A stretch of 64,000 bases of DNA from Marinitoga lauensis (lineage in GTDB: Bacteria; Thermotogota; Thermotogae; Petrotogales; Petrotogaceae). This document shows positions 37,162 through 45,185 of the stretch, in pieces. The stretch is from positions 248,001 through 312,000 of the forward strand of contig NZ_QHLX01000004.1 of the NCBI RefSeq assembly GCF_004135675.1, in the 5' to 3' direction. Below the pieces are notes generated by a model. That model was not told where the DNA came from. It ran no database searches and saw only the letters and a program-made list of their open reading frames with translations. A program made the position numbers and the translations under genes. How positions within the stretch are numbered: the first letter of the stretch is position 1; the number at the start of each line of letters is the position of its first letter.

Positions 37162-39176
37162 ATGAAAAATTTAAAATATATTTTAATTGCATTATTATCT
37201 GTTCTATTTCTTTTTGCAAGTTGTCAATCTTCTATATTGAACACAGATGAAAAAACAAAAACCTCATCTTCAAACGATGTAGTATTTGGAGAATTCAACA
37301 ATGAAGAAATCTTTGAAGGTAGAATACTTGTAGGATACAAGGATAAAAACGCTATAGAAAAAATAAAAAATACTTTAAATGGTGAAGTTTATATAGAAAT
37401 TCCAGAAATTAATGTTGTTGGTATAAAATTCAATGGAACAGTAAAAGATGCCTATTTGAAATTAAAAACTTTAAAATTAGATGGTATAAAATACGTTGAA
37501 CCAAGTTTCAAAAGAGAGTTAATTGATCCAAAACCAGAAATCGTTGATGATTCTATTACTAAAGATATTGATGGAGTTAAAGAAGATAGTTTATGGGGTA
37601 TGGTTAAAATTGGTGCAGAAGATGCATGGAAGGTTGCAACAGGAACAAATATTATAGTTGGAGTGGTTGATACACCTATAGACGCTCAACATCCAGATTT
37701 AGCTGGGCAATTTGTGACTGGTTTTGATCCGGTGACTGGAAATTTAATAATGCCAGATGAAGATTATGACGCAGTTCTTGGAGGTCCTGGTGATACAGGT
37801 GATGATCATGGAACACATGTTGCAGGAACAATTGCTGCTAAAAAAGATGGAAAAGGTGTTGTAGGATTAGCATATGGTGCAAAGATTATGTCCATACCTA
37901 TATTCCAACCAGATTATGTTGGTGATGCATATGTAGCAAGAGGAATAATATGGGCTGTTGATCATGGTGCTCAGGTATTATCAAATAGCTGGGGTGGTGG
38001 AGGTTACTCTAAAACATTAAAAGCTGCTATTGATTATGCGTTATATTACAACGTTGTTTTTGTAGCAGCAGCTGGAAATTCACATACAGATCAACACTGG
38101 CATTATCCATCATCATATCCAGGAGTTATTGCAGTTGCAGCATCAAATGCCCGAGATGAAGTTACTGATTTTTCAAATCATAGTGATACTATATCTGTAG
38201 CGGCACCTGGTGCAAAGATATTATCCACAATTCCAAGACATTCAGCACCTATTTATGGTCTTTACAATGAACCTTATGATTATTGGGATGGAACATCCAT
38301 GGCAACACCACATGTTTCAGCTTTAGCTGCATTATTAAAACAATTACATCCAGATGCAACACCATATCAAATCAAAAAATGATAGAAAATACTGCTGATG
38401 ATATAGATGAAAGTGGTTGGGATCATGCTTCAGGATATGGAAGAATAGATGCTAAAAATGCTGTAGAAATCTATCCATCAACTGCAACATTACCTGCAAC
38501 TGGTAATACTGTTATAATTCAATGTGTTGATACTACCATGTATCAAAGTTATCCAAATGTATACATATCTTTAGTGAAAAAAGATGGAAAAGGCAGTAAT
38601 TATTATATAAAAACTCAAGATTATTATGGATTTGTTGCTGGCGTTCTTCCACATATTGAACCAGGAGATTATGAAATGTATATATATGGTCCAGATCCTA
38701 TGGATTTTGATTCTCCAAACTTCAGAGAAGAAGAAACATTTACCATAGCAACAGATGTTTCATTAAATCCATCTCAAGATAACTATATGATACCAATAGT
38801 CTTTGATTCAACCTTTAAACTCGATTTAGATTTAGATGCAGCCATTACAGGAGGAGCTACATTGATTGCTGAAGATATAAATAATTTATCATTACCTTCT
38901 TATATGGCTACATCTACATATAATTATTCTATCGGAGAAGAAGCAACACATGTATCTTTCGACCTTTCAAATCTAAGCGGACAATTTAGATTAATGGTAT
39001 ATAGAGACGTGGTAAAAGACTCCTCTCCAATTACAATTAGTGGTACAGCAACCATCAATGGACATGATGTCCCTGTTGTTGGAGTAATACCAGAAGGACA
39101 ATCTAAAGGTTTTGTTGAAGATGTTAGATTTATAGAATATGTTGACCCAGGATTAATTCCATGGACAATATTCTAA
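37162..39176 (+). CDS. Subtilisin-like (S8) serine protease lipoprotein (one apparent frameshift)
   Basis: Begins MKNLKYILIALLSVLFLFAS with the lipobox FASC. Residues ~45-115 look like a propeptide/inhibitor domain. The catalytic triad is clear: Asp in GVVDTPIDAQHPDL, His in DDHGTHVAGTIAA, Ser in WDGTSMATPHVSA, with the oxyanion Asn in AAAGNSHTDQHW. The frame breaks near 38378 inside an A-run; one restored A joins PYQIKKMIENTADDIDESGW. Repaired length ~671, with a ~230-residue C-terminal beta-rich domain. It is lipid-anchored, facing outward, and encoded 15 bases after the giant lipoprotein. A role in protein feeding fits the peptide- and ornithine-using metabolism, as inference. Confidence 0.92.
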
Positions 39177-39180
39177 TATA

Positions 39181-39215
39181 AAAATATCCCCCTGAAAAAT
39201 TCAGGGGATATTTTT
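39181..39215. terminator. Terminator between the convergent subtilase and transporter genes
   Basis: Stem AAAATATCCCCCTGAA / TTCAGGGGATATTTTT followed by T-rich DNA on the plus side and A/T-rich DNA on the other; it can serve both genes. Confidence 0.85.
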
Positions 39216-39230
39216 ATATTTACATCATTA

Positions 39231-40348
39231 TCAAAATCTTATTAAAATCACCATTCCTAGTAATGCAAAAGGATATGTTGCTCCATAACCAACTGCAACC
39301 TCTTCTGAATCATTTGCATCTATTGCTGCTCCTAATCCTGGAGTGCTTGTCATACCTCCACAAATTGCTCCTGATAATATTATCCAGTTTATTTTTAATA
39401 TATATTTACCAAAAATAAAACCAAGTATAATTGCTATTATTGCTATAATAAATGAATAAAGCATAAGATACATTGTTGTTTGATTTAAATTGTTTAAGGT
39501 GTTATATCCTGATTTTAACCCCACAGATGATAGGAACATTAACAATCCTAATTCCTGCAAAACCTTTAATATTCTTTTATCCATTTTAAAATTTAAAAAT
39601 CCAATCTTACCAATTGTCCCTAAAAAAAGAGAAGATAATAAAATTCCTCCTGTCATTCCTAATTTAAAAATAATAATACCAAAATTTAAATTAAAATTCC
39701 CTATCAATATTCCAAAAATAATTACAAGAGAATAGGCTAAAAAATCAAATCCTTCATTTTTATTTTCATCAAACTCCATTTCCTGCAATAACTTTTTCTT
39801 TTCTTCTGAAATATCTATTTTAAATATCCTCGGTAATAAGTACATAGAAAATATAACTGCTAATACACCAGGTATATAACCAAAAGAATACCCTGATATA
39901 ATCTCTTTCTCAAAATCAGGTGCTGTTTCTAAAGCCGTTGCCAATCCGGGAGAACTCGTCAAAGCTCCAGAAAACAAACCAACAAACTCATACTTATTTC
40001 CTGTTTTCGATAATATATAGGTTATTAAAAAACCAGAGATAGTAATAAAAAATGCCATAATTAAAAATTTAAATCCATATTTTTTATAATATATTTCAAA
40101 TCCTTTGATGCTATCAATCCAACAGAGGAAATAAATAATATCAAAGAAAATAAGAAAAATTGTTTAAAATCCGTATTCATTCGACTTATAACAGCTGATT
40201 CGTTTAAAATATGGCTGGTAGCGTACCAGCCAAGAAATAATCCACTAAATAAGGCTCCAGAATTCCCCAACCTAAAATTTCCTATTTTTATTTTACCTAT
40301 CAATATTCCAAGAAAAATTGATAAAAACAATAATAAATACGAATTCAT
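39231..40348 (-). CDS. AspT/YidE/YbjL-type transporter (one apparent frameshift)
   Basis: A polytopic protein of ~372 residues made of two homologous halves, each with the family motif: FSGALTSSPGLATALE and ISGAICGGMTSTPGLGAAID. These occur in aspartate:alanine exchangers and YidE/YbjL transporters, including ones linked to succinate or other dicarboxylate export. The cytoplasmic TrkA-C domains common in YidE are missing between the halves. The frame breaks near 40075 in an A-run; one A gives IIKKYGFKFLIMAFF. It starts 17 bases after sucD, following AAGGAGG, so it is in the riboswitch-controlled sucCD transcript. Export of succinate or a related acid is an inference from that linkage. Confidence 0.8.
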
Positions 40349-40364
40349 AATATCCTCCTTATTT

Positions 40365-41189
40365 TCATATTAGTTCTGGAATATTTTTTATTACTTTAAC
40401 TCCTAATTCTTTTAATTTTTTCTCTTTGTATTCAATACTACCTTCATAACCCTCCAAAATAGCACCAGCATGTCCCATTCTTTTACCCTTTGGAGCTGTC
40501 CTTCCTGCAAAAAATACCTTTATATCACCTTTATATCCTTTTTCCAATGCACTTTCAACGCCTTTTATTTCATCATTACCACCAATTTCACCGATTATAA
40601 CAACTTTTTTATTTTTTCTTTCATTATATAATCCATAGCTTCTGCAACAGAAGTACCTATAATTGGATCTCCACCAAGCCCTATACCTATTTTAATACCA
40701 GTAGAGTATTTAGATAAATAGTCAGAAATTTCATACATCAACGTTCCACTTCTTGAAATAATTGCAATATCCCAGGTTTAAAGGCTCTTTCTGGCATAAT
40801 TCCTATTTTTGAAACACCTGGTAATATTACACCTGGACAATTTGGCCCTATTATCCTTACATCATTATCTTTGGCAATATGATATATATCAAGCATATCC
40901 TGTTGTGGTATGTGCTCTGTTATTATTATTATCTTTTTATTCCAGCATTAATTGCCTCAAAAACTGCTTCTTTAGCAAATTTAGCAGGAACAAATACAAC
41001 TGATGTATCAACCTTATACTTCATTACAGCATCATACATATTATTTAATACTTCTACACCATGTAATTTTTTTATTACATTATTTTTGAAACACCACATA
41101 ATATTCTTGCACCATAATTCAACATCTTTTCTGTATGTATTCTACCATATTTTCCAGTAATTCCTGAACACATATTCTTTCTTTTCCAT
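40365..41189 (-). CDS. sucD: Succinyl-CoA synthetase-like, alpha subunit (about four apparent frameshifts)
   Basis: The CoA-binding, phosphohistidine-carrying subunit of an ADP/GDP-forming succinyl-CoA synthetase-type ligase (~275 residues repaired). Visible family stretches are SGITGKYGRIHTEKMLNYGA, GPNCPGVILPGVSKIGIMPE, SRSGTLMYEISDY, IGLGGDPIIGTS and FAGRTAPKGKRMGHAGAILE, the last containing the catalytic His of MGHAGA. The frame breaks near 41088, 40942, 40777 and 40625; each needs one extra A or G. The start overlaps the sucC stop (TAATG). The protein is somewhat shorter and more divergent than classical SucD, so the acid it uses may not be succinate. Confidence 0.85.
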
Positions 41190-42211
41190 TAATCATTTAT
41201 TCTCACCATCCTTACCGCATCTGGTATCATTGAATACATATCTTCATAATAACCTATATTATTTTCTTTTAATATTTTTTTGCCAGGTCTTCATTTGTTC
41301 CTGTTAATCTAACATATAATTGTATTTCTGGATTTTCACTCTTAAATTCCACAAGGCCATGAGCTATTTCATCACATTTTGTTATACCACCAAATATATT
41401 CAATATTATTCTATTTATTCCATATTCTTTTAATAAATTTAATGCCTGTATAGTAATGTCTTTTTCGGCACCTCCCCAAGATCTAAAAAGTCCGCAGGTT
41501 CTCCACCGGCTAATTTTACTGCATCCATTGTTGCCATAACAATACCTGCACCACATCCTATTATTCCAATATCTCCATCTAATTTAACAAAGTGAAATGG
41601 ATATTTCTCTTCTACAAAGTCCTGTGTCCACTCCTGTCTGAATATTGCATTATCATCAAGATGCATTACACTATCAAGTGCATATATTTCGCCATTTATC
41701 CTTCAACTAATGGATTTATTTCTAACAGAGTTAAATCTTTTTCTCTGAACAACTTTCTCAAATTCGGTATAATTTTTTTTATATTTTCCGGTAGTATATT
41801 TTCATAGTTTTCAAAATTAGTTTTTACTATACTATTTTTGTTTTCTTCTATGTTGACACCACCATTTTGCGAATACAATATAATAATATCTTTTTCTTCT
41901 CTATCGAGAATAAGTGAAATATAATGTTCTTTTTCAAAGGGGATCATTTCTTCCACAAGAACACCATACGGTTTTTCACCTTTTATTTCCTTAAATAATA
42001 ACTCACGAATATTTACTATAAACTCTTTTCTGGTATTGGCAAATAACACACCACCTGCCTTCATACGACCTCCAACCAGCACCTGGGATTTTAATACTGC
42101 AGGAAGAAATTTAATTTCTATATCTTTTTCTTCCTTTATTAAATAAGATGTCGGTACTTTAACACCATACTCTTTTAAAAAACTTTTCCCTAAAAATTCA
42201 TGCACTTTCAT
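41189..42211 (-). CDS. sucC: Succinyl-CoA synthetase-like, beta subunit (about three apparent frameshifts)
   Basis: ATP-grasp subunit of the acyl-CoA ligase (~341 residues repaired, shorter than the ~388 of typical SucC). It opens [35 protein letters not shown] is the nucleotide-binding loop, [10 protein letters not shown] the metal/ATP-grasp motif, and [20 protein letters not shown] with DFLDLGGGAEKD the subunit-interface region. The frame breaks near 41699 and 41475 (one G missing each) and 41276 (one A missing). The ATG at 42211 follows AGGAGGTGG. The gene is directly downstream of a cobalamin riboswitch and its terminator, an unusual control for this enzyme. Confidence 0.85.
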
Positions 42212-42225
42212 AAGGCCACCTCCTA

Positions 42226-42266
42226 TAAAAATAAAAATTCTATCCCACTTGCCCTCGCAAACGGAT
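42226..42266 (-). terminator. Terminator hairpin of the cobalamin riboswitch (expression platform)
   Basis: Minus-strand stem ATCC..TTGC / GCAA..GGAT with a GAGG loop (42242-42266) followed by AGAATTTTTATTTTTAT and then the sucC ribosome-binding site. It fits a transcription-terminating expression platform. Confidence 0.65.
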
Positions 42267-42271
42267 TGCTC

Positions 42272-42426
42272 TGGAATTAAAGGCAGGTCTCCCGACTTCT
42301 GGATCATCCTACTTCCAGCGCCTTCCGGTTCCCAGTGGCATTTTGCTGGTTTCGTCCCAGTTACGGTGGCGGGCCGTGACGGATTTTCACCGTCTTCCCT
42401 TTTAAGATTTCTCACCTTTAATTCCG
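42272..42426 (-). promoter_or_regulatory. Cobalamin riboswitch
   Basis: On the minus strand the conserved core is clear: AAAAGGGAAGACGGTGAAAA, then CCGTCACGGCCCGCCACCGT, a B12-box-like ATGCCACTGGGAACCGG, and AGTCGGGAGACCTGCC near the 3' end. The closing stem P1 pairs GGAATTAAAGG (42415-42425 side) with CCTTTAATTCC (42273-42283 side) perfectly. It lies between its own promoter and a terminator hairpin ahead of sucC. Cobalamin riboswitches normally shut expression when adenosylcobalamin is plentiful (established). That would make sucC-sucD-transporter a B12-repressed operon here (inference). Confidence 0.95.
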
Positions 42427-42455
42427 GAGGTATTAACTTTTTGATTTTACACTTT

Positions 42456-42485
42456 ATTCTATCATATAGATAAGCATTTTATCAA
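42456..42485 (-). promoter_or_regulatory. Promoter of the riboswitch-sucC-sucD-transporter operon
   Basis: Minus-strand TTGATA, 18-bp spacer, TAGAAT, about 30 bases before the riboswitch and just after the cblS stop codon. It indicates that the riboswitch has its own promoter rather than being read only from the cob genes. Confidence 0.6.
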
Positions 42486-42495
42486 TCTTTATTTT

Positions 42496-43204
42496 TTATA
42501 TATATTCACCTATTATATTCAATGGAATTTTAATTATCTCTTCTAATCTCTCAAAATCTTCTCTTTTTAATGTAATTAAAGCACATGTTGCTGGACCAGC
42601 ACTTTTATTTAAATCTATCTCTATATTATCTTTCATTTTTAAAGATAATTTATTGGTTTTTTCTATTTCTTTTAATTCATAAAATATACCTTTTGAACCA
42701 ACTGGAATTATTTCATGAATATATTTTGTTTTCTGATATTATTTAATATTTTTAAATTAATAATTTCGTTGCTTTCTAAAACTTCATTTCCTAATTTTGG
42801 TAAACCTGCTAAAACAACTATATCATTTTTTTGAGTTTTATAATTAATAAATTTCTCTTTTCTCCGATAACTGTAATTCCCATTCCTGTTTGAACAACTG
42901 GAAAATTTTCTTCTGTACTACCTGTAATGATTTTATTTTCATTTATTCCTAATTGTTCCAAAGCCTTTTTTATTCCTTTTATTATCTCTTTTCCCGTGTC
43001 ATTCAATTCAACAGATAAGGTATCTATTACAGCAATTGGAAAAGCACCATATGAAATTATTTCTGCTAAGGCCACATGTGCTGTAAAATATCCAACTATA
43101 TCTGGTGGAACCTTTATTATATCCATTTGTTTATTACCAATACCGCCAGATGAATCACATGCAATAGCTAATTCTTTATTGTCACAAACATTAATTATTG
43201 TCAA
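42496..43204 (-). CDS. cblS: AIR synthase-related protein, probable alpha-ribazole kinase CblS (two apparent frameshifts)
   Basis: A PurM/ThiL-like ATP-binding protein (~237-245 residues repaired). It has IACDSSGGIGNKQMDIIKV near the start, the GYFTAHVALAEIISYGAFPI helix and the glycine-rich IITGSTEENFPVVQTGMGIT, all typical of AIR synthase-related proteins. In several Firmicutes a relative, CblS, phosphorylates alpha-ribazole so CobS can use it; position directly after cobC and cobS makes that the best call. Frame breaks near 42850 (one A) and 42738 (one base) are repaired to continue through NDIVVLAGLPKLGNEVLES and IIPVGSKGIFYELKEIE. The true start is unclear: only TTG at 43204 fits in frame, but GGAGGTG 25-30 bases upstream suggests a start nearer 43228 (ATA, or a missed base). 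Confidence 0.7.
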
Positions 43205-43224
43205 ATCTCTTACTTTCTTTATTT

Positions 43225-43757
43225 TTATATTAGCACCTCCATTTCAATTATTCCACCAGGTCTTATATAACCTGTTTTTCCATTGTTGAATATATCATTT
43301 ATCACACTTATAACTGCACCATGAGTTATTATTAAATATTTTTTATCTTTATCAATTGTATATATAAACTTTTTTATTCTTTCATAGAAAGCTTTATAAC
43401 ATTCTCCATCAGGAAAACAATAATTTTTATAATCCCCAATCCATTTTTTATATTCTTCAGGATATTCTTTTTTATCTCTTCTATATTTTTACCTTCAAAT
43501 TTTCCAAAGTTTATTTCTCTTATCTTATCATTTGTTATAACCGTTTTATTCAATACTTTTGATATTTCAATAGCTGTATAATATGCTCTTTTTAATGGGC
43601 TTGAAATAATAATATCTATATTGATAGATTTTAATTGTTTTTTTAACTCTTTAATCTGTTCTCTCCCATGTTTTGTTATTGGATAATCGAGTTTTCCGCT
43701 AAAAATTTTTTTCTTATTTGCCTCTGTTTCAACATGACGTACTAATATTATTTTCAT
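43225..43757 (-). CDS. cobC: Histidine phosphatase, probable alpha-ribazole-5'-phosphate phosphatase CobC (one apparent frameshift)
   Basis: Phosphoglycerate-mutase-like phosphatase of ~177 residues. ILVRHVETEANKKKIFSG carries the catalytic RH motif, and IITHGAVISVIND the second histidine. It removes the 5'-phosphate from the product of CobS in cobalamin assembly (family role). The frame breaks near 43470; one restored A gives EIKKEYPEEYKKWIGDYKNY. Its start lies inside the end of cobS (29-bp overlap) and its end runs into the cblS ribosome-binding region. The order cobU-cobS-cobC supports the CobC call over other members of this broad family. Confidence 0.82.
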
Positions 43758-44472
43758 AATACCCTCTAAACATGTAAATAAACATCAAAAAAAATAATTG
43801 TGAAAATTCTATAATAAGTCCTATTGTATCTCCTGTCATACCATCTATCTTTTTCTTTATCTGCTGAGTAATAAATACTGTACCTAAATATGTTAGCAAA
43901 ATGGGAAAAATAATAAATGGTTTATAAAACAATAATATAGGAGATATAATTAGAAACGAAATAAAAAACGTTTTTAAATTACAATTATCTATGAAGAGAT
44001 TACCAAGGCCATTTTTTCGAGAATATTCACTTATAGCTGCTGCTAAAATCCCGGAACTTCTTCCAACTGCTGGCATTAATATCATATATATATAATCAGT
44101 ATAATAACTAAATATAATATCAGAAAATAACACCATAATCAATCCTAAAACTCCAAATGTACCAATTCTACTATCTTTCATAATTTTTAATATTTCTTCT
44201 TTACTTCTATTGCTAAATAAACCATCAAAGGTATCTGCAACGCCATCAAGATGAAGTCCGCCTGTAATCCATATATAGAAAATCCAGCTCAATAAAACAT
44301 ATATTATTTTGTCAACAGGTAGGAATGAAAATAAATACATTAAAAAACCGATAAACAATCCCAAAGCAGGTAAATATATAAATCCTTTAATAAATTCATT
44401 TTCATCATATTCAATATTTACTTTAATGGGTATTCTTGTAAAAAAAGTTATTAATAATATCAATGATTTCAT
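43729..44472 (-). CDS. cobS: Adenosylcobinamide-GDP ribazoletransferase (cobalamin synthase)
   Basis: Integral membrane enzyme (247 residues, about six to seven helices) that joins adenosylcobinamide-GDP to alpha-ribazole or its phosphate. The diagnostic regions are LITFFTRIPIKVN at the N-terminus, GGLHLDGVADTFDGLFSNRS with the metal-binding acidic residues, and KDSRIGTFGVLGLIM. It follows cobU by 4 bases. No indel is seen. With cobU, cobC and cblS it forms the nucleotide-loop assembly branch, enough for salvage of corrinoids but not for de novo corrin synthesis. Confidence 0.93.
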   Translation of the reverse strand: MKSLILLITFFTRIPIKVNIEYDENEFIKGFIYLPALGLFIGFLMYLFSFLPVDKIIYVLLSWIFYIWITGGLHLDGVADTFDGLFSNRSKEEILKIMKDSRIGTFGVLGLIMVLFSDIIFSYYTDYIYMILMPAVGRSSGILAAAISEYSRKNGLGNLFIDNCNLKTFFISFLIISPILLFYKPFIIFPILLTYLGTVFITQQIKKKIDGMTGDTIGLIIEFSQLFFLMFIYMFRGYYENNISTSC

Positions 44473-44476
44473 GATT

Positions 44477-45028
44477 TCATCCTTTCAATTTTAAAGGTAT
44501 TCCAGAAATAGTAATATATACTTCATCAGAATTTCGTGCCAGATATTGATTGATTCTTCCTGCAATATCTCTAAAAATATTCCCTAATTTATATGCAGGC
44601 ACTATTCCCATTCCTACCTCATTTGTAACTATTATTGTATTTTTATTATTTTTCTTAATCACTGATATAAACTTTCTAACTTCATTAAATATAGTATTTT
44701 CTATTTCATCAATTTTATTATAATTTTCATTTTCAATATCATATTCCAGAAGTAAATTTGAAACCATTAATGTCATACATTCAAATATAATAGTGTCGCT
44801 AGAATGAAATAACGGGTCTTTTTCTAACAAATCAAAATCTTTATATCTTTCAATTAATTCCCACTCCTTGGGTCTTGCCTCTTTATGTTTATTTATTCTT
44901 ATTTTCATACCCTCATCAAATGGGATTGCTGTAGCTATGTATAATATGTTCTTTCCTATCTTTTTAGCATATTCCTGTGCATAGGTGCTTTTTCCACTTC
45001 GAGCACCTCCGGTAATTAAAATAATCAA
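44477..45028 (-). CDS. cobU: Adenosylcobinamide kinase / guanylyltransferase
   Basis: A bifunctional enzyme that phosphorylates and guanylates adenosylcobinamide. The P-loop ITGGARSGKSTYAQEYAKKI and YIATAIPFDEGMKIRINKHK, with the active-site histidine of the RINKHK stretch, identify it, as does IIVTNEVGMGIVPAYKLGNI near the end. About 183 residues, normal length. I chose the TTG at 45028 (after GAGGGG) over a longer upstream frame because it places the P-loop at the usual distance from the start. It is divergent from lepA. No riboswitch is visible in the short gap upstream. Confidence 0.92.
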   Translation of the reverse strand: MIILITGGARSGKSTYAQEYAKKIGKNILYIATAIPFDEGMKIRINKHKEARPKEWELIERYKDFDLLEKDPLFHSSDTIIFECMTLMVSNLLLEYDIENENYNKIDEIENTIFNEVRKFISVIKKNNKNTIIVTNEVGMGIVPAYKLGNIFRDIAGRINQYLARNSDEVYITISGIPLKLKG

Positions 45029-45185
45029 AATATCCCCTCGCTTTCTTTTAATATATTTTATCAAAAATAGAATAAAAATAAAAAATAATATAAGCGAGTA
45101 TTATTTTGTTTTACGAAAGTTTTTTGTCATACATTTTAAAGAAAATTTTGATATAATATGAAAAAATAGGATTGGAGGTGCTTAT

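Follow-up and report, generated by a model that had tools for sequence, protein, structure and literature searches.

Why a cobalamin (B12) riboswitch should stand before genes for a succinyl-CoA synthetase-like ligase and a transporter was investigated for a locus of Marinitoga lauensis (assembly GCF_004135675.1, contig NZ_QHLX01000004.1, positions 248,001 to 312,000). The window, i.e. the whole stretch of DNA analysed, comprises 64,000 nucleotides. The first-pass annotation had described a promoter, a complete cobalamin riboswitch and a terminator platform, followed by sucC, sucD and an AspT/YidE-type carrier on one strand. It regarded this arrangement as unusual and offered two explanations, namely that ligase and carrier handle an acid or acyl-CoA that would otherwise go through a B12-dependent path, or that the carrier moves a corrinoid or a corrinoid precursor.

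Table 1. Features of the riboswitch-sucCD locus, in positions of the window
Feature	Position	Strand	Basis
Promoter-like site TTGATA-18-TAGAAT, TG before the second hexamer	42456..42485	-	consensus match only, weak
Cobalamin riboswitch aptamer (RF00174), complete	42265..42434	-	cmscan, 101.8 bits
P13-type hairpin 3' of the aptamer, predicted expression platform	42242..42266	-	folding
U-rich run UUUUUAUUUUU behind the hairpin	42227..42237	-	sequence
Shine-Dalgarno AGGAGG	42219..42224	-	sequence
sucC-like CoA ligase beta subunit	41189..42211	-	CGAG (Cys) and GGRMK signatures; frameshifts; 3' end placed by comparison with G005
sucD-like CoA ligase alpha subunit	40365..41196	-	SRSGTLMYE and catalytic-His motif MGHAG; frameshifts; ends placed by comparison with G005
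AspT/YidE-type carrier	39231..40348	-	Asp-Al_Ex in both pieces; one frameshift
cobU, cobS, cobC-like phosphatase and AIR-synthase-like gene (cobalamin salvage neighbours)	42496..45064, ends approximate	-	neighbouring genes; co-transcription conceivable

The riboswitch was found to be complete, as annotated: in the covariance-model scan it exceeded the RF00174 gathering score of 31.5 by far (101.8 bits, E 2.6e-24) and covered model positions 1–189 of 189, and aligning the leader to the model placed the B12 box, AAGTCGGGAGACCTGCC, near the aptamer 3' end. The sucC start lies 53 nt downstream of the riboswitch, and no gene separates the two in the present assembly. Scanning the whole genome returned two cobalamin riboswitches, the second one upstream of a BtuF-type periplasmic binding protein gene. 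The annotated promoter has a consensus-like counterpart, which is weak evidence because a similar number of sites arises in shuffled sequence (four in 42000–42700 on both strands versus 2.3, sd 1.8, in shuffles). The terminator platform was supported by folding of 42275–42225 (-9.2 kcal/mol), which gave the P13-type hairpin followed by AGAA and the U-rich run, but not by a terminator scan of the window region, which left this hairpin and U-rich run on the minus strand unflagged. Hairpins were visible in many other riboswitch-sucC leaders, a comparison that serves only for hairpin appearance, as the automatic Shine-Dalgarno search shortened many of the leaders.

The order riboswitch, sucC, sucD and carrier on one strand was confirmed, although all three genes are frameshifted in the assembly. 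Two pieces of the window SucC match ATP-grasp_2 and Ligase_CoA, and Asp-Al_Ex is matched by both carrier pieces. In the same-genus genome G005, ATP-grasp_2 and Ligase_CoA were found in the beta subunit, CoA_binding and Ligase_CoA in the alpha subunit, and the intact carrier (378 aa) matched TIGR01625 in two stretches (134.6 bits, cut-off 71.95). Members of the AspT/YidE antiporter family have TrkA_C-type domains between the halves; no Pfam match to such a domain was obtained in the two broken window pieces, the G005 copy having been compared with NCBIfam. Within the AspT family, the SucE1-type exporter of succinate has the same Asp-Al_Ex duplication; the carrier differs from it in its length in G005 and possibly in TrkA_C, given no match in the window pieces. 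SucC is indeed short, as the first-pass annotation had it, with 341 aa in the G005 copy versus 385–397 aa in the five bacterial SCS beta chains that rank highest among the PDB matches listed.

Many genes in window positions 38283–43757, and others in the genome (87.9% complete), are split by frameshifts, which disrupt sucC, sucD, the carrier, the neighbouring cob genes and the methylmalonyl-CoA mutase (MCM) gene. If these frameshifts were real, the operon would be a decayed locus, dead in Marinitoga lauensis, and the broken state of window sucC, sucD and carrier would agree with this. We consider decay extremely improbable: the cob genes and the MCM gene of the same genome are also frameshifted, and indel errors of the assembly appear likelier because same-genus genomes carry intact copies. 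The cobC-like and AIRS-like assignments also draw on copies from the same genus.

Conservation was evaluated in a phylum sample of 103 Thermotogota genomes. Counting matches of more than 50% identity together with the broken window copy, and leaving out matches of about 20–30%, which are other proteins by length, a SucD close to that of the window was found in 28 of the 103. In 25 of these 28 genomes sucC is immediately preceded by the riboswitch. Contig ends cut the region upstream of sucC in two (G011 and G032), which are therefore not evaluable, and in G087, where no MCM was found either, no riboswitch was detected in the 3.2 kb upstream of sucC. The complete order riboswitch-sucC-sucD-carrier occurs in all seven genomes of the genus (own included) and in G018; across 21 genomes of the family, 48 riboswitches were found. 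For comparison loci, a profile built from 48 riboswitches was used in place of a B12-box regular expression, which had missed one locus (L168).

Outside the phylum, four genomes belonging to two further phyla carry the pair (loci L161, L162, L168 and L253). The best 80 of 191 sucC relatives in the scan of genome contigs consisted of four Thermotogota loci, three further loci with the riboswitch upstream of sucC at 113–115 bits (L161, unclassified; L162, titled Dictyoglomota; L168, titled Cloacimonadota) and 73 others, in which the profile found no riboswitch; 48 of these 73 are archaeal by title, giving a bacterial control of 25 loci. In the L168 phylum, represented by 124 genomes, the riboswitch accompanies the two top-ranking matches, G105 (L168) and G155 (L253), and was found neither by profile nor by Rfam at 19 other sucC loci taken from it, L257 with its short upstream stretch among them. 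The phylum of L162 (nine genomes) has the pair in G103 (holding L161) and G104 (holding L162), and two more of its genomes have a sucC match with no riboswitch within the available stretch. By the same profile, no riboswitch precedes sucC at any of 92 other loci, which amount to 43 evaluable bacterial loci, 48 being archaeal and one (L257) having only 169 nt upstream. Chance pairing was rejected on this contrast of 25/28 with 0/92 (43 bacterial, evaluable). The search in related genomes that the first-pass annotation had proposed thus returned the pairing in 25 of 28 Thermotogota genomes and in four genomes beyond the phylum; the pairing is real and conserved.

The direction of control was approached through the other riboswitches of the phylum. 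Sixty further Thermotogota stretches, drawn from among the matches listed, contained 61 riboswitches, of which 35 precede a BtuF-type gene, 20 precede cob/cbi runs, two precede NrdD runs and one leads elsewhere (L355), with no gene called in the stretch for the other three. NrdD, the B12-independent ribonucleotide reductase, scored 557.4 bits in L300 (G100) and 549.2 bits in L334 (G028) for TIGR02487 (cut-off 326.35). Because uptake, synthesis and NrdD genes make sense as B12-repressed, sucCD is by analogy probably switched off by B12 as well (OFF switch). G005 (C1:913681 and 916401), G007 and G010 each carry two riboswitches spaced by 2.7 kb, of which one precedes cobU and the other sucC; of these two, only that of sucC is present in the window genome.

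The site of action is indicated by two genomes of the same family, G019 (80% complete) and G020 (94%), which have MCM and in neither of which a SucCD match was found. Here, in the place of SucCD, the riboswitch is upstream of a gene from one shared cluster. The G020 copy scored 715.3 bits for the succinyl-CoA:acetate CoA-transferase ScpC (cut-off 500) and 745.8 bits for succinate CoA transferase (cut-off 658.7), and the G019 copy was assigned by cluster. A second enzyme of the succinyl-CoA node behind the riboswitch points to succinyl-CoA, not to a corrinoid, as what the regulated genes would handle, and the succinyl-CoA node as site of action is well supported.

MCM was found in 90 of the 103 Thermotogota genomes. 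It is present in 25/25 genomes with riboswitch-sucCD versus 65/78 others (Fisher p 0.035, kinship ignored); for SucCD alone the difference (27/28 versus 63/75) is not significant (p 0.11, kinship ignored). With three of three outside the phylum (G103, G104 and G105), MCM occurs in all 28 pair genomes searched. Conversely, 63 of the 90 MCM genomes of the phylum, among them 11 of the family's 20, are without SucCD, so most MCM genomes manage without such an outlet. In the G005 MCM cluster, MCM, the MCM C domain, epimerase and MeaB scored above their cut-offs; an mmdA-like subunit fell short with 861 bits (cut-off 998.8), and mmdD- and mmdC-like subunits did so by a wide margin. Elsewhere, a Na+-pump beta subunit adjoins a 2-oxoacid oxidoreductase alpha subunit. 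MCM lies about 8–10 kb from riboswitch-sucCD in four genomes of one genus, and sucCD stands beside MCM and mmdA in three of the 73 comparison loci (L207, L215 and L227). Two candidate pathway markers were discarded: OAD_beta, carried by 101 of 103 genomes, and TIGR03710 as a marker of 2-oxoglutarate oxidoreductase, which is unspecific (103/103 genomes match, 55 above the cut-off, none of them in the own genus). Of the two explanations originally offered, that of an acid or acyl-CoA of a B12-dependent path is the best supported, by MCM in 28/28 genomes and the ScpC-type replacement in two relatives.

The carrier family varies between genomes. Beside sucCD, the 28 Thermotogota genomes have AspT in 16, YitT in eight (one copy scanned, the others assigned by clustering), EamA in one and none in three; G035 has both AspT and YitT, and the EamA gene of G038 follows after a gap of 274 nt. 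Outside the phylum, L161 and L162 have EamA, and L168 and L253 have EamA and then YitT. EamA relatives are mostly exporters, and YitT is an uncharacterised family in Pfam. According to the accessible part of PMC9527358, an exporter of succinate is among the AspT family members. In four genomes YitT alone stands directly behind a riboswitch (G011:C14, G018:C1:512772, G019:C161 and G020:C451), which places YitT in the B12 regulon outside the sucCD setting too, and a role of stand-alone YitT in corrinoid metabolism would also fit. The earlier suggestion of a corrinoid carrier finds no support for the AspT type, since three carrier families share one ligase, and may still apply to YitT.

The ligase itself shares its domains and catalytic-His motif with succinate-CoA ligase (TIGR01016/TIGR01019), MGHAG being present in SucD of 28/28 Thermotogota genomes and of the four outside sets. 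It differs from that enzyme in the short SucC, in two signature residues and in scores below the curated cut-offs, which the G005 copies did not reach (SucC 287.6 versus 375.55; SucD 298.2 versus 353.2). SucC reads CGAG in 28/28 Thermotogota genomes versus NGAG in five SCS chains among the PDB matches listed, and SucD reads SGTLMYE in 28/28 versus SGTLTYE wherever else a SucD motif was recognised. In the four pairs outside the phylum, SucC likewise has Cys, and SucD has Met or Leu. As a strict mark of riboswitch control the SucC Cys was rejected, as it also occurs in six Thermoplasmata-type archaeal loci with no riboswitch or recognised SucD in the available stretch. On a SucC tree of 100 rows from 119 loci (a motif filter dropped 19, including several Cys archaeal loci), two changes account for the Cys label, versus a shuffled mean of 24.4. 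A 100/96 branch has the Thermotogota and Cloacimonadota rows together on one side; L161/L162 and a row from Thermoplasmatota are next to them. Two Cloacimonadota loci encode SucC and SucD as one naturally fused protein, of 673 aa in L168 (3813-5834) and of 670 aa in L253 (905-2917).

In our judgement the best explanation, and probably the correct one, is that B12 controls an outlet located at the succinyl-CoA node. With ample adenosylcobalamin, the riboswitch would take the bound fold and keep sucCD and the carrier low, and MCM, epimerase and methylmalonyl-CoA decarboxylase would convert succinyl-CoA to propionyl-CoA. When B12 is short, MCM would stall and the riboswitch would let the operon through; SucCD would then turn succinyl-CoA into succinate, gaining ATP and freeing CoA, and the carrier would expel the acid. 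The riboswitch, gene order, conservation, MCM co-occurrence, CoA-transferase in the place of SucCD and carrier replacement are computed results. We infer that B12 switches the operon off, which way the ligase runs, that the acid is succinate and that the carrier exports it.

The reverse direction has to be weighed, as CoA-transferases and ligases can catalyse their reactions either way. MCM could make succinyl-CoA from propionyl-CoA for biosynthesis, and when B12 is short SucCD or ScpC, both able to run towards succinyl-CoA, would make it from succinate imported by the carrier, and would thereby act as a B12-independent substitute of the NrdD kind. The lysine genes found 3' of sucCD-carrier in seven loci of two genera would suit such a supply role, as some lysine pathways use succinyl-CoA, and read-through into them is possible in these loci. 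A lysine riboswitch lies between carrier and lysine genes in L120 (5269-5446), and none was found between sucCD-carrier and lysine genes in L132. The lysine acyltransferase is described by its Pfam domain as a succinyltransferase; nonetheless, in the three loci scanned it matched the acetyl-type model TIGR03532 (318–340 bits, cut-off 231.75), with succinyl models below their cut-offs. Because of this match it would not use succinyl-CoA, and the proposed succinyl-CoA link to the lysine genes was dropped for these three loci. Control of replacement enzymes by B12 riboswitches, seen here for NrdD in two genomes and described in the accessible text of PMC3766115, favours supply as well; the exporters in the AspT family and among EamA relatives speak against import, and the decarboxylase-type subunits in the same-genus MCM cluster point to consumption of succinyl-CoA. 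On balance we hold supply to be conceivable but unlikely.

That the acid is another one is a possibility left by the shared Asn-to-Cys (SucC) and Thr-to-Met/Leu (SucD) substitutions. A ligase with these signatures might act on another acyl-CoA of the MCM node, e.g. methylmalonyl-CoA, and the carrier expel that acid, with which the constancy of both residues and the scores of both subunits under curated cut-offs would agree. The ScpC replacement points instead to succinyl-CoA itself, and the six archaeal loci show that the SucC Cys is not specific to the riboswitch setting, so we rate this substrate as quite improbable. Corrinoid salvage, in which the carrier would move a corrinoid or precursor and the ligase modify a corrinoid or be a bystander, draws on YitT alone behind riboswitches and on cobU-cobS-cobC-AIRS adjoining the operon in the window, G005, G007, G009 and G010. 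It appears highly improbable, given that no cob genes were called beside the pair in the stretch compared of G006, G008 and G018 and none in most loci of other families (L130 and L131 have cobU/cobS-like genes kilobases away), and that no corrinoid role is known for the CoA-transferase found in place of SucCD. A mere neighbour effect of the cob genes was considered unlikely, as the pair also occurs without them. A wider version of the outlet we regard as distinctly unlikely: that riboswitches in at least three lineages repeatedly recruited SucCD, fused SucCD or ScpC together with AspT, YitT or EamA as a regulated CoA relief valve, which drains the substrate when a B12 enzyme stalls, and that in addition the Cys/Met ligase is tuned to a non-succinate acid of the MCM node (e.g. 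methylmalonate) and YitT proteins are acid exporters.

The pairing is unusual in comparison with textbook targets of B12 riboswitches, as annotated, but a riboswitch-linked cluster of this kind is already in print. For Thermosipho, the accessible text of Haverkamp 2018 (PMC6211235, citing Swithers 2012) names four B12 clusters for which regulation through B12 riboswitches is possible, 'BtuFCD, Corriniod, Cobalamin, and SucCoA' (sic); neither a mechanism nor a carrier is given there. Like the SucCoA cluster of that genus in the same phylum, the window locus combines a B12 riboswitch with succinyl-CoA ligase genes; other genera, other phyla and the CoA-transferase and carrier replacements are added here. 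While the pairing itself was known in Thermosipho, the spread beyond the phylum, the replacements of enzyme and carrier and the shared SucC and SucD residues are new. No description of an outlet function of riboswitch-sucCD was found in the literature searched, which left out most subscription papers. B12 riboswitches also control isozymes of B12-dependent enzymes (Sun 2013, PMC3766115, as far as its accessible text goes), and the likeness lies in genes needed under B12 shortage behind a riboswitch. SucCD differs in having CoA-ligase domains and no mutase; it does not perform the MCM reaction and would relieve the stalled substrate, not replace the enzyme. In Xylanibacter ruminicola, propionate production is cobalamin-dependent and B12 supply decides whether succinyl-CoA proceeds to propionate, yet the accessible part of that report (PMC11575231) has no riboswitch near the succinate pathway genes on this same route, which counts against the outlet model.

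If the outlet model is true, the riboswitch would re-route fermentation, a role beyond saving or replacing a cofactor, and B12 supply would set whether these anaerobes excrete propionate or succinate. ScpC and SucCD would then be interchangeable parts, and the YitT family would gain a functional lead.
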